This document shows positions 3,508 through 40,324 of a DNA stretch of 40,324 bases, in pieces. Each line of letters opens with the position of its first letter. Position 1 is the stretch's first letter. Source of the DNA: an uncultured Eubacteriales bacterium (lineage in GTDB: Bacteria > Bacillota > Clostridia > Lachnospirales > Bianqueaceae); NCBI GenBank assembly GCA_900315265.1, contig OMYN01000017.1:1-40324 (forward strand). Direction: 5' to 3'. The notes beneath the pieces were generated by a model. That model was not told where the DNA came from and ran no database searches. It saw only the letters and a list, made by a program, of their open reading frames with translations. The translations under genes and the position numbers were made by a program.

Positions 3508-4673
3508 AGCAATTTGATGTGATTATTGTCGGAGCGGGCCCCTGCGGCAGCATCTTAGCAGCCGGACTTGATCCGCGGATCCGCGTCCTTGTAGTCGATC
3601 GTCGTCATGTCCTGGATACAGATCGGATCGAGGAGGAAGCCAAGTGCTGCGGCGGTATGCTGGATCATGCCGCTCAGGAAGAACTGGCACATCTGGGGAT
3701 CGGCCTTGACCGAAAGACGTTGATGGCACCTAACGTATTCTCGGTGAGGGCTGTTGATTTCGAATCCAGGATGGAGAGGTTCTATCCCCGCAATTATCTG
3801 AATATGGATCGCGGCTGGTTCGATCACCAGCTGCTCAAACGCGCCTCAAGGCGGCCTAATGTGACCGTCTGGCAGGGGATCCGGGTCACAGGTTTTAAAG
3901 AAGAAGACGACCGGGTCCTGGTCGATTTCAGATCTGTCGATGAAGACGGAGCGGATCAGCCGGCCCGCCAGGTCAGCTGTCGTTATCTGGTAGGTGCGGA
4001 CGGGGCCTCGTCCGTTATCCGCTGCCAGCTGCTCAAAAATGAAAAGAAAGAGCGCCTTCCCAGAAACTATGTAGCTATCCAGGAAATTCATGAAGTCGCA
4101 AAGCCTCTTCCGTATTACATGGCTGTCTTTGACAAAAGAGTTACCGATTATTACAGCTGGGTCATTCCCAAAGGAAATAAAATTTTGATCGGGGCGGCTA
4201 TCCCGGCAGAAAAAAGCCCCAAATACGGCACAGCCAGTCAGCGCTTCGAATATCTGAAAGAGGACTTGACCATTAAAGGCTTTGATCTGTCCTGCCCCTT
4301 GAAACGGCAGGGATGCCGGCTTTTAAGGCCAAGGGCTGTCGGCAGTGTCAACAGCGGCGGGGGACGTGTCTTTCTGGCCGGGGAGGCAGCCGGTCTGATC
4401 AGCCCCAGTTCTTCCGAGGGGATCAGTTTCGCCATGAGAAGCGGCGAGAAGCTGGCAAAGGCTATGGGCCGCCTGGTAAAGTCCGATAAAAAGAAGGCAA
4501 AGGATCTTATCCATCTGCGCTACAGGCAGGCCCTGCGGCCGCTTAAGCTAAGCATCTTTCTGAAAACCTTTAAATCGTTTGTTATGTATACGCCCCTGGT
4601 CAGGGCCATGGTCTTCCTGACCGGAGCCCTTAGTATCAAGGGACCGGTCAAGAGCAGGAAGTGGTCGTTATGA
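3504..4673 (+). CDS. FAD-dependent oxidoreductase of the geranylgeranyl reductase family
   Basis: A 389-residue flavoprotein. The N-terminal Rossmann motif is VGAGPCGS (residues 8-15). An internal VGADGASS motif near residue 164 and the C-terminal GEAAGLISPSSSEGISFAMRSG segment, which binds the FAD phosphates, place it in the group of geranylgeranyl reductase/FixC-like enzymes. These reduce isoprenoid double bonds or act as related flavin oxidoreductases; the substrate here is unknown. CCGGM near residue 49 is also typical. It starts with TTG at 3504, overlapping the stop of the upstream methyltransferase gene, so translation is probably coupled. No membrane segment is obvious, although the last 40 residues are quite hydrophobic. 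Confidence 0.8.
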   Translation: MKQFDVIIVGAGPCGSILAAGLDPRIRVLVVDRRHVLDTDRIEEEAKCCGGMLDHAAQEELAHLGIGLDRKTLMAPNVFSVRAVDFESRMERFYPRNYLNMDRGWFDHQLLKRASRRPNVTVWQGIRVTGFKEEDDRVLVDFRSVDEDGADQPARQVSCRYLVGADGASSVIRCQLLKNEKKERLPRNYVAIQEIHEVAKPLPYYMAVFDKRVTDYYSWVIPKGNKILIGAAIPAEKSPKYGTASQRFEYLKEDLTIKGFDLSCPLKRQGCRLLRPRAVGSVNSGGGRVFLAGEAAGLISPSSSEGISFAMRSGEKLAKAMGRLVKSDKKKAKDLIHLRYRQALRPLKLSIFLKTFKSFVMYTPLVRAMVFLTGALSIKGPVKSRKWSL

Positions 4674-37183: not shown

Positions 37184-39118
37184 ATGGCCAACGAAAAGGA
37201 AGGGCAGAATCTGAACCAGATCCTTCAGCTGCGCCGTCAGAAACTGGCGGAGCTGCAGGAGGCCGGCAAGGATCCGTTCAAAATCACCAAATTCGATCAG
37301 ACTCATCACAGCAATGATATCGCTGAACACTTTGACGAACTAGAAGGCAAAACCGTTAAAGTAGCCGGCCGTATCATGAGCAAACGTGTCATGGGCAAGG
37401 CTTCGTTCTGCCATATCCAGGACCGCAACGGCCGCATCCAGCTGTACGTGACCCGCGATAATATCGGCGAAGAAGCCTACAAAGACTTCAAGCATTACGA
37501 TGATGTCGGCGATATCATCGGCGCAGAGGGCGAAGTCTTTCGTACCATGAAAGGGGAGATCTCTGTCCGTGTCCATGCTGTGATCCTTCTGACCAAGAGT
37601 TTGCAGACCCTTCCTGAGAAATTCCACGGCCTTACCGATGTCGAACTCCGTTATCGCCAGCGTTATCTTGATCTGGTCATGAATCCGGAAGTAAAGGAGA
37701 CCTTTATCAAGAGGTCTCAGATCATCGCCAGCATCCGCCGCTATCTGGACGGACAGGGCTTTATCGAAGTCGAGACCCCCATGCTGGTAGAAAACGCCGG
37801 CGGCGCGGCTGCCCGTCCCTTTGTAACACATTACAATGCCCTGAACGAAGACCGCAAGCTCCGTATCTCGCTGGAGCTGTATCTGAAACGCCTGATCGTA
37901 GGCGGTCTTGAAAGAGTTTACGAGATCGGCCGTGTTTTCCGCAATGAAGGCGTCGATACCCGCCATAATCCTGAGTTCACTCTGATGGAGCTTTATCAGG
38001 CTTATACCGATTATCACGGCATGATGGATCTGACCGAGAACCTTTTCCGCAATACGGCTAAGGAAGTCCTTGGAACGACCACCATCACCTACGGGGACAA
38101 GGTCATGGATCTGTCCAAACCGTTCGAGCGCATTACCATGATCGGCGCGGTCAAGAAATATGCCGGAGTCGATTTCAGCCAGATCCATACCCTGGAAGAA
38201 GCCCGCAAGGCAGCGGACCAGAAAGGTGTTGCCTACGAACAGCGACACGGAAAAGGCGATATCCTGGACCTGTTCTTCGAGCAGTTTGCTGAAGATAAGA
38301 TGATCCAGCCTACCTTCGTTATGGACCATCCGATCGAGATTTCGCCCCTGACCAAGAAAAAGCCGGAAGATCCCAATTATGTAGAGCGGTTCGAGTTCTA
38401 CATGAACGGATGGGAAATGGCTAATGCTTATTCCGAGCTGAACGACCCCATCGACCAGCGCGAGCGCTTCAAGGCAGAAGAAGCCCGTCTGGCCCAGGGC
38501 GACGAGGAGGCCAACCATACCGACGAGGACTTTGTTAATGCGCTGGAGCTGGGTATGCCGCCTACCGGAGGCATCGGTTTCGGCATCGACCGTATGGTCA
38601 TGCTGCTGACCAATCAGCCCTCCATCCGCGACGTCCTGCTGTTCCCCACAATGAAACCTTTGGACAAGGATAAGACCGAAAAGGCCGAGACCAAGGCGGA
38701 AGAAAAACCCGTTGAAGCGGCTCCTGTCGTCGAGGAAAAGATCGACTTTTCCAACGTCGTGATCGAGCCCTTGTTCCAAGATCAGGTCGATTTTGAGACC
38801 TTCTCCAAGTCTGATTTCCGCGCTGTGAAGGTCCTCGAATGCGAGGCAGTACCCAAGTCCAAGAAACTCTTAAAGTTCACTTTGGATGACGGTTCTGACG
38901 AGAAAAGGACGATTTTGAGCGGTATTCACGCATATTATGAGCCTGAAGAGCTGGTCGGAAAGACCTGCATCGCCATCACGAATCTGCCTCCCAGAGCGAT
39001 GATGGGCATCGAGTCCTGCGGCATGCTGCTCTCCGCCGTTCATAAGGAAGGCGAGGAGGAGAAGCTCCATCTTCTGATGGTTGATCCCCACATCCCTGCT
39101 GGTGCTAAGCTGTATTGA
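37184..39118 (+). CDS. lysS: Lysyl-tRNA synthetase (class II) with fused C-terminal tRNA-binding domain
   Basis: Charges tRNA-Lys. The first 495 or so residues are a standard class II LysRS: an OB-fold anticodon domain (VKVAGRIMSKRVMGK), motif 2 (FRNEGVDTRHNPEFTLME) and motif 3 (GIGFGIDRMVMLLTN). An acidic linker (about 500-520, rich in K, E and A) joins a second OB-fold of the Trbp111/EMAP-II type (about 535-644, FSKSDFRAVKVLECEAVP...SKKLLKFTLDDG, then NLPPRAMMGIESCGMLL) as found at the end of many MetRS. The total of 644 residues exceeds the common 490-500. Codon choice seems to shift near 38820, with more CTC, TTA and TTG for Leu, and an integrative element appears to begin right after the stop. 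Confidence 0.93.
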   Translation: MANEKEGQNLNQILQLRRQKLAELQEAGKDPFKITKFDQTHHSNDIAEHFDELEGKTVKVAGRIMSKRVMGKASFCHIQDRNGRIQLYVTRDNIGEEAYKDFKHYDDVGDIIGAEGEVFRTMKGEISVRVHAVILLTKSLQTLPEKFHGLTDVELRYRQRYLDLVMNPEVKETFIKRSQIIASIRRYLDGQGFIEVETPMLVENAGGAAARPFVTHYNALNEDRKLRISLELYLKRLIVGGLERVYEIGRVFRNEGVDTRHNPEFTLMELYQAYTDYHGMMDLTENLFRNTAKEVLGTTTITYGDKVMDLSKPFERITMIGAVKKYAGVDFSQIHTLEEARKAADQKGVAYEQRHGKGDILDLFFEQFAEDKMIQPTFVMDHPIEISPLTKKKPEDPNYVERFEFYMNGWEMANAYSELNDPIDQRERFKAEEARLAQGDEEANHTDEDFVNALELGMPPTGGIGFGIDRMVMLLTNQPSIRDVLLFPTMKPLDKDKTEKAETKAEEKPVEAAPVVEEKIDFSNVVIEPLFQDQVDFETFSKSDFRAVKVLECEAVPKSKKLLKFTLDDGSDEKRTILSGIHAYYEPEELVGKTCIAITNLPPRAMMGIESCGMLLSAVHKEGEEEKLHLLMVDPHIPAGAKLY

Positions 39119-39126
39119 TTGAGAAG

Positions 39127-39187
39127 CCAAAATCGGCTCGAATCACCAATTTAGTCACCAAAAATCACCTTTCGATCTCCAAATCGG
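39127..39187. repeat. Cluster of short direct repeats after lysS
   Basis: CCAAAATCGG (39127-39136) recurs as CCAAATCGG (39179-39187). Between them lie ATCACC (39142), GTCACC (39154) and ATCACC (39164) at 10-12 bp steps. Spacing near one helical turn suggests protein-binding arm sites of a recombinase or excisionase. Confidence 0.45.
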
Positions 39188-39242
39188 AAGGCAAAAAAAT
39201 GCGATTCCTCATGGTATGGCATAAATCATCGTTAATCTGCAA

Positions 39243-39278
39243 GAGACTCACTATCATACGGTAGTGGGTCTCTTTTTT
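39243..39278 (+). terminator. Rho-independent terminator
   Basis: GAGACTCACTA (39243-39253) pairs with TAGTGGGTCTC (39262-39272) with one T-G pair, followed by a T run. It would end lysS read-through. Confidence 0.9.
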
Positions 39279-39327
39279 GTTTTCAGCCTGTTCGAGATCG
39301 AACCTGCTGTACATATCCTATCTGTTT

Positions 39328-39357
39328 GCCCGCTGAGTAAAATCAGCGGGCTTTTTT
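39328..39357 (+). terminator. Second rho-independent terminator
   Basis: GCCCGCTGA (39328-39336) pairs with TCAGCGGGC (39343-39351) followed by six T. Two terminators in a row insulate the region downstream. An AT-only style hairpin TTTTTGAA/TTCAAAAA (39393-39412) follows. Confidence 0.9.
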
Positions 39358-39429
39358 GTTTCTAGAGGTGTGTGGAATGAGCGCGAAAAATTTTTTTGAA
39401 ATTTTTCAAAAATTGATGTCGTTTTTTGG

Positions 39430-39820
39430 CCTTCGATGTTGCGGTAAGGGGGTGAGAGGAGAAATTCCTACTCACCGCTACTTGACAACTGAATACACAT
39501 TCATCAGGTACGTTCCTGAGCGGGGGCGAAAGTCCCAGCCGAATGAAGGTGCGCCAAGACCCTCCTGCCCATCCGGGTTATAACGGAAAGCAAGGTGGCG
39601 AGCGTTTCCGAACCATTCTGAAATATCCGGTTGCTACGGATATGGCCATGAAACGCTACAGGGTTAATGATACTTCTCTACGGAGCTGGCGGAGAACCCG
39701 GCAGGGGTGAGATTCCCATGGACTTGTTTCGCAAACAAGCGCCTGATGTATTCCCACGTGGGGTGTCGAGGACAAATAACGCACAGGTACATAGCGGTAC
39801 AGAAATGGATCGCTGTGAAT
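39430..39820 (+). ncRNA. Candidate structured non-coding RNA upstream of parA
   Basis: About 390 bp with no credible gene but many stems: GTGAGAGGA with TCCT(A)CTCAC (39452-39476); a three-way unit closed by ATTC/GAAT (39499-39544) holding TCAGG/CCTGA (39504-39519) and a GGGGC-GAAA-GTCCC hairpin; ATATCCG/CGGATAT (39623-39643); a GGG/CCC plus TTCTC/GAGAA stem (39661-39699); CTTGTTT/AAACAAG (39723-39739); and CCCACGTGGG (39753-39762). I cannot match it to a named family. It may be a long leader of parA or an independent RNA of the element. Confidence 0.5.
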
Positions 39821-39841: not shown

Positions 39842-40324
39842 ATGGAAAACTGTAAAGTGATCGCTATCACGAACCAGAAGGGCGGCGTCGGTAAAACGAC
39901 TACGACAGTCAACCTCGGCGTGGGCCTTGCAAACACCGGAAATAAGGTCTTACTGATTGACGCTGACCCGCAAGGGAGCCTCACGGTGAGCCTCGGTGTG
40001 AAGAACCCAGACGAGCTGGATGTGTCGCTATCTACGCTCATGCAATCGGTCATAGAAGATGAACAGCCTCCCGGCAACGCGATCATCGCCCACAATGAAG
40101 GCGTTGATCTGCTTCCTTCTAATATTGAACTGTCCGGTATGGAAACGGGCCTGTTTAATGTTATGAGCCGTGAGTACGTTCTGAAATCCTGTATCGAGGG
40201 TATGAGAAAGAACTACGACTATATTCTTATCGACTGTATGCCTTCTCTGGGAATGATGACGGTCAATGCGCTTGCTGCGGCAGACAGTGTGATTATTCCA
40301 TCTCAGCCGAACTTCCTGTCAACC
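39842..40324 (+). CDS. ParA family ATPase, cut by the window end
   Basis: The first 161 codons of a ParA/Soj-type partition ATPase. It has the deviant Walker A KGGVGKTTTTVNLG (residues 14-27), the DADPQGSLTVSLG motif (41-53) and the Walker B region YDYILIDCMPSLG followed by VIIPSQPNFLS. Such proteins segregate plasmids, and in ICEs they help maintain the excised circle. AAAGGAGG lies about 8 bp before the ATG. A parB-like gene would be expected next, outside the window. Confidence 0.93.
   Translation, partial: MENCKVIAITNQKGGVGKTTTTVNLGVGLANTGNKVLLIDADPQGSLTVSLGVKNPDELDVSLSTLMQSVIEDEQPPGNAIIAHNEGVDLLPSNIELSGMETGLFNVMSREYVLKSCIEGMRKNYDYILIDCMPSLGMMTVNALAAADSVIIPSQPNFLST

Follow-up and report, generated by a model that had tools for sequence, protein, structure and literature searches.

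The window analysed here is the whole 40,324 nucleotide stretch of contig OMYN01000017.1 from an uncultured Eubacteriales bacterium (GCA_900315265.1). Towards its right end it carries lysS (37184–39118), a pair of intrinsic terminators predicted by a terminator scan (39241–39274 and 39328–39351) and the 5' part of parA (39843–40324), recognised by its KGGVGKTT motif; the terminators, parA and all features of the RNA given below are on the forward strand. A preliminary description of this DNA had placed a stem-dense structured region without a credible reading frame at 39430–39820, between the double terminator and parA. Both the placement and the non-coding character were borne out, as the open reading frames that overlap the region are short and unsupported, but comparison with homologues and covariation confine the conserved RNA to 39482–39778, i.e., about 300 bases co-directional with parA downstream. 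The hairpin immediately 5' of the RNA (39451–39476), read in the window and compared with loci L005 and L007, is unlike these relatives in sequence and lies outside the conserved core, as does the tail past 39778 up to 39820. Forward strand folding was modestly better than that of shuffled sequence (z = -2.0; 4 of 100 shuffles were equally good), while the minus strand had no advantage over shuffles (z = -0.6). About 65 nt separate the 3' end of the RNA from the start codon of parA, and the terminator scan found no terminator in this interval. A scan of the window found no sigma-70-type promoter between the terminators and the RNA. The sequence AAGTGAAGGGG, suspected to be a promoter block common to the loci, was discarded: it is present within 140 nt in just 15 of 45 loci, and in some cases (L240, L243) it makes up the 3' strand of a hairpin that resembles a terminator.

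The surroundings of the RNA can be compared within the genus. In another species (G015) the same RNA, 95% identical, and parA likewise follow lysS, and a terminator similar to that at 39328–39351 (GCCCGCTGA...TCAGCGGGC TTTTTTGTTTC) precedes the RNA (locus L005). In G013 an RNA of another subtype is found about 1.4 kb past lysS. Three species of the genus (window 39119–39480, L200 and L192) thus carry RNAs of the type discussed here, of differing subtypes, 3' of lysS, a site that is perhaps an integration hot spot. The lysS product of the window is 644 aa long and has a C-terminal extension beyond the LysRS part that resembles a tRNA-binding (MetRS-type) domain, whereas that of G015 is 504 aa long and lacks the extension. 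Elsewhere in the window's own genome, on contig 32 (L003, 2860–3965), about 1.1 kb of imperfect repeats is located upstream of a ParB-like gene. One of these repeats (ATGTTGCGGTAAGGGGGTGAGAGG, at L003 3303) is identical to window 39436–39459, just 5' of the RNA, and another repeat type is similar to the stretch preceding the RNA in L007; the repeats are possibly promoter or ParB sites.

The RNA begins with the boxA-like element TTGACAACTGAATA (39482–39495), identified by comparison with homologues and rRNA spacers. It is closed as a whole by a covarying long-range helix, P1 (CAUCAGG, 39502–39508, with CCUGAUG, 39742–39748), and a second long-range helix supported by covariation, P2 (UCCUGAGCG, 39514–39522, with CGCUACAGGG, 39654–39663), encloses the 5' domain. 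Then there are the P3 hairpin with a GAAA tetraloop (GGGGC-GAAA-GUCCC, 39523–39536, constrained fold), the segment GGUGCGCCAAGACC (39548–39561), conserved among homologues, the P5 hairpin (CCUCCUGC / GCAAGGUGG, 39561–39598, pairing test and fold), with one U-U mismatch in the window, and the P7 hairpin (AUAUCCG-GUUGCUA-CGGAUAU, 39623–39643, pairing test and covariation). The next stretch (39664–39721) matches the Rfam family RF02913 (pemK) and holds the core AAUGAUACUUC (39666–39676), P8 with a UACG loop, P9 and P10; it is followed by the P11 hairpin (CUUGUUU-CGC-AAACAAG, 39723–39739, pairing test) and by a 3' box conserved among homologues, composed of a CCC...GGGG hairpin and GUGUCGAGGACAAAUA (39753–39778). 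Homologues from dozens of Clostridia elements have in common boxA UUGACAACUGAAUA, P1, P2, P5, P7, P11 and the core. The conserved order is a boxA-like UUGA(A/C)AACUGAAUA, CAUCAGGUACGUU, GGUACGCCAAGACC, AGCGAG, a hairpin and GGCNAUGA in the 5' part, and the core, the pemK hairpins, a further hairpin and CCUGAUG-UUCCC in the 3' part, followed in many members by GGGGUGU-GAGGACAAAUA. Imposing the conserved helices on the window gives -97.0 kcal/mol compared to -101.6 kcal/mol for the unconstrained minimum. While the GAAA-loop hairpin of the preliminary description is real, its three-way-junction unit, closed by GCGUUUC (39602–39608) and GAAACGC (39650–39656), lacks conservation: L107 and L112 have no 5' arm, and one strand of P2 overlaps with the 3' arm. 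In the constrained fold CUUGACA of the boxA region (39481–39487) can pair with UGUCGAG (39764–39770) of the 3' conserved box; this pairing, which not all members preserve, could be a boxA-masking switch.

Compensatory base changes among homologues had been proposed as a check on the RNA, and strong covariation was seen in P1 and P2. Across 45 deduplicated sequences the mean pairing energy of the native strands is -14.5 kcal/mol for P1 and -14.7 kcal/mol for P2, relative to about -8.7 and -9.4 kcal/mol, respectively, with permuted partners. For neither helix did any of 20,000 permutations do as well as the native strands, and the outcome was the same for P5, P7 and P11 (0 of 20,000 each). The native pairing was still stronger when the partner strand was taken from the closest relative (P1, p = 0.0036; P2, p = 0.00029). 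When 13 parA/mazF-type sequences were aligned with MAFFT, RNAalifold recovered P2 and P7 unaided. The structure of model R1 consists of P2, P7 and a 2-bp helix; of its 15 pairs, 14 have changes on both sides, with a covariation of 0.81 compared to 0.24 for shuffled and at most 0.20 for slid controls; these are tests other than R-scape, and their shuffles treat sequences as exchangeable. With such covariation, the original suggestion of a functional RNA is right, and so is that of a leader encoded by the element.

The preliminary description could assign no known class. RF02913 matches at 68 bits (cut-off 34.8), so that part of the RNA, its 3' third, does belong to a described family; one of the refuting outcomes named in the preliminary description, a match to a known RNA family, hence applies in part. 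No other Rfam family reached its gathering score in the window region, and a search at loose threshold added chance matches and a sub-threshold dinG match alone. Reading the surroundings of homologous loci showed that the conserved RNA is longer, with the pemK part making up just its 3' third. The RF02913 model spans no more than 61 positions, roughly a fifth of the conserved length, and is without boxA, P1, P2, P5, P7 and P11.

The whole RNA has a counterpart in canT of Tn916, a 452-bp cis-acting processive antiterminator between orf8 and xis, which acts on heterologous promoters and terminators and is inactivated by the S3 mutation (ATA to TGC), which abolishes antitermination, and by a 162-bp deletion (Wirachman and Grossman, 2024, PMC11658703). 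The published coordinates were anchored at the end of orf8 (4040) in the Tn916 copy of pCTN1046 (L108). This places the start of the active 452-bp fragment at 4166, which is also the start of boxA, S3 at 4323–4325, where the letters are ATA as published, and the deletion at 4269–4430. RF02913 matches canT at 4323–4423 with 55 bits. Model R1, whose training set of 13 parA/mazF-type 5' halves excluded both Tn916 and the pemK part, matches end to end at 4166–4322 (42.2 bits, E 8.9e-5; E 6.7e-6 when the Tn916 plasmid alone is searched). The first base of this match is also that of the active fragment as published, and the two models, made from different parts of the RNA, abut at adjacent bases inside canT. 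Both published inactivating mutations fall on the pemK domain, S3 being exactly the first three bases of the pemK match; the core at this site is AUAAUGAUAC in Tn916 and UUAAUGAUACUUC in the window (39664–39676), with the first letter changed and the others kept. canT shares with the window RNA boxA, P1, P2, P5, P7, the core AAUGAUAC, the pemK hairpins and P11, and Tn916 was represented by a near-identical copy (L069) in the pairing tests of P1, P2, P5, P7 and P11. The two differ in that the P8 arm is longer in canT and that canT precedes xis/int and requires excision before it can act on the left-end operon, whereas the window RNA directly precedes parA. By homology the window RNA belongs to the canT family. 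In the literature searched, a limited library, no report was found that links RF02913 or RF03082 with canT.

Related loci, gathered by DNA and RF02913 searches, are widespread: of 291 genomes sampled from the class, 90 had an RF02913 score over the cut-off, compared to 0 of 14 control genomes. Among 76 distinct loci, 62 have parA, pemK/mazF or recombinase/excisionase genes within 1.3 kb 3' of the RNA, as classified by sequence motif and not by Pfam (11 parA, 11 pemK/mazF, 29 serine recombinases, 7 tyrosine integrases and 4 excisionase-like); of the others, 11 were without simple motifs and 3 ended too early. This bears on the role of a regulatory parA leader, suggested in the preliminary description, and more generally on a cis-acting leader that would regulate just the gene 3' of it, parA in the window and pemK elsewhere, by attenuation, ligand binding or protein feedback. 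Rfam labels RF02913 'Cis-reg', and the RNA is upstream of, close to and co-directional with parA. The genes downstream are, however, unrelated (parA, pemK/mazF, xis/int and serine recombinases), which makes a parA-specific role too narrow; the gene after the window RNA is parA, not the pemK implied by the family name, a name that is not part of the model. In addition, the scan found no terminator between RNA and parA, and the homologue canT is a processive antiterminator that works on heterologous promoters and terminators (PMC11658703). Gene-specific regulation is therefore improbable. A genome-wide ParA scan returned mostly unrelated ParA loci; the RNA was present in L112 and L119 alone among 14 upstream regions read, and is thus not tied to every ParA of this type.

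Still less likely is an element-encoded, free-standing structured RNA with a function in trans. The RNA is long, highly structured and far larger than most leaders, and boxA is also found with long non-coding transcripts such as rRNA, but no terminator was found that would separate it from parA, and canT has been demonstrated to act in cis (PMC11658703). A copy-control (antisense-target) RNA, as raised in the preliminary description, or a degraded coding sequence, to which the nearby ParA gene and the richness in stems might point, is very unlikely, as no replication gene was noticed near the RNA, the minus strand folds at chance level, Rfam gave no antisense RNA match in the window region and the covarying helices already contradict a coding origin.

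The window region is thus best explained, with a probability of roughly 0.8, as the nascent-RNA part of a canT-kind processive antitermination system that heads the parA-led operon of an integrative element. This reading is supported by the full-length homology to canT, the conserved architecture, the covariation, the rRNA-like 5' boxA and the association with mobile-element genes. Counting against it are the negative promoter scan 5' of boxA and the position of canT before xis/int instead of parA. The boxA of the window differs by one letter from TTGAAAACTGAATA, a 14-mer located in the 16S-23S spacers of two other genomes, 389 nt (G461) and 621 nt (G534) past the 16S 3' end. By analogy with canT, the window RNA would act in its element as follows. 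Its boxA, once transcribed, would recruit host Nus factors (NusB/S10), a route presumed from E. coli rRNA and lambda where boxA acts via NusB and S10 (PMC4807359; PMC12691694). The folded RNA would remain attached to the RNA polymerase, which would then disregard terminators within the long operon of the element. Transcripts from outside would be halted at the two terminators 5' of the RNA, and spurious transcripts initiated inside the element would be without the RNA. The operon of the window itself is unreadable because the contig stops in parA. Related parA-type elements lead into long, mostly co-directional operons, in which internal terminators gave a mixed picture that is suggestive only, with several on the sense strand in G006 and no excess in G538.

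A similar relationship may extend to the Rfam family RF03082 (dinG). The dinG loci L240 and L244 contain boxA, GCGCCAUGACC, a AGCGAGCGA-like segment, the core and P1/P2-like pairs as in the canT family, and R1 matches L240 at 49.9 bits. The P8–P10 region differs from that of the window RNA, which scores 15.7 bits with RF03082, below the cut-off of 46.9. dinG looks like a variant of the pemK/canT RNA, a link that is weaker than that of pemK, as the dinG loci examined were few and just one strand was read for two of them, L241 and L242. RNA-based processive antitermination is also known from put of phage HK022, EAR of Bacillus and conAn2 of pLS20, a large RNA that heads a conjugation operon within a system that additionally employs the protein ConAn1 (PMC8955417). 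put and EAR parallel the window RNA in their published mode of action; the sole Rfam match at gathering score in the region of the window RNA is pemK. A test for homology to conAn2 was negative: the pLS20 conAn region has no boxA, no core, no RF02913 match and no significant R1 match, so that the likeness is one of working, with homology not detected.

New findings are the family member in the window, a covarying structure common to the family, and a connection between canT and two orphan Rfam families, pemK and dinG, which look like fragments of one canT-family RNA. It is tempting to speculate, with chances that appear about even, that pemK, dinG and canT of Tn916 are pieces of one old family of large RNAs of Clostridia mobile elements, which hijacks host rRNA antitermination via an rRNA-like boxA and locks the machinery onto RNA polymerase by a two-domain fold. 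Independently of this speculation, the membership of the window RNA in a widespread family, with its covarying structure and rRNA-like boxA, provides a likely function for the two orphan families and opens the mechanism, with respect to Nus factors, P1/P2 and the core, to direct tests in elements by which antibiotic resistance is spread.
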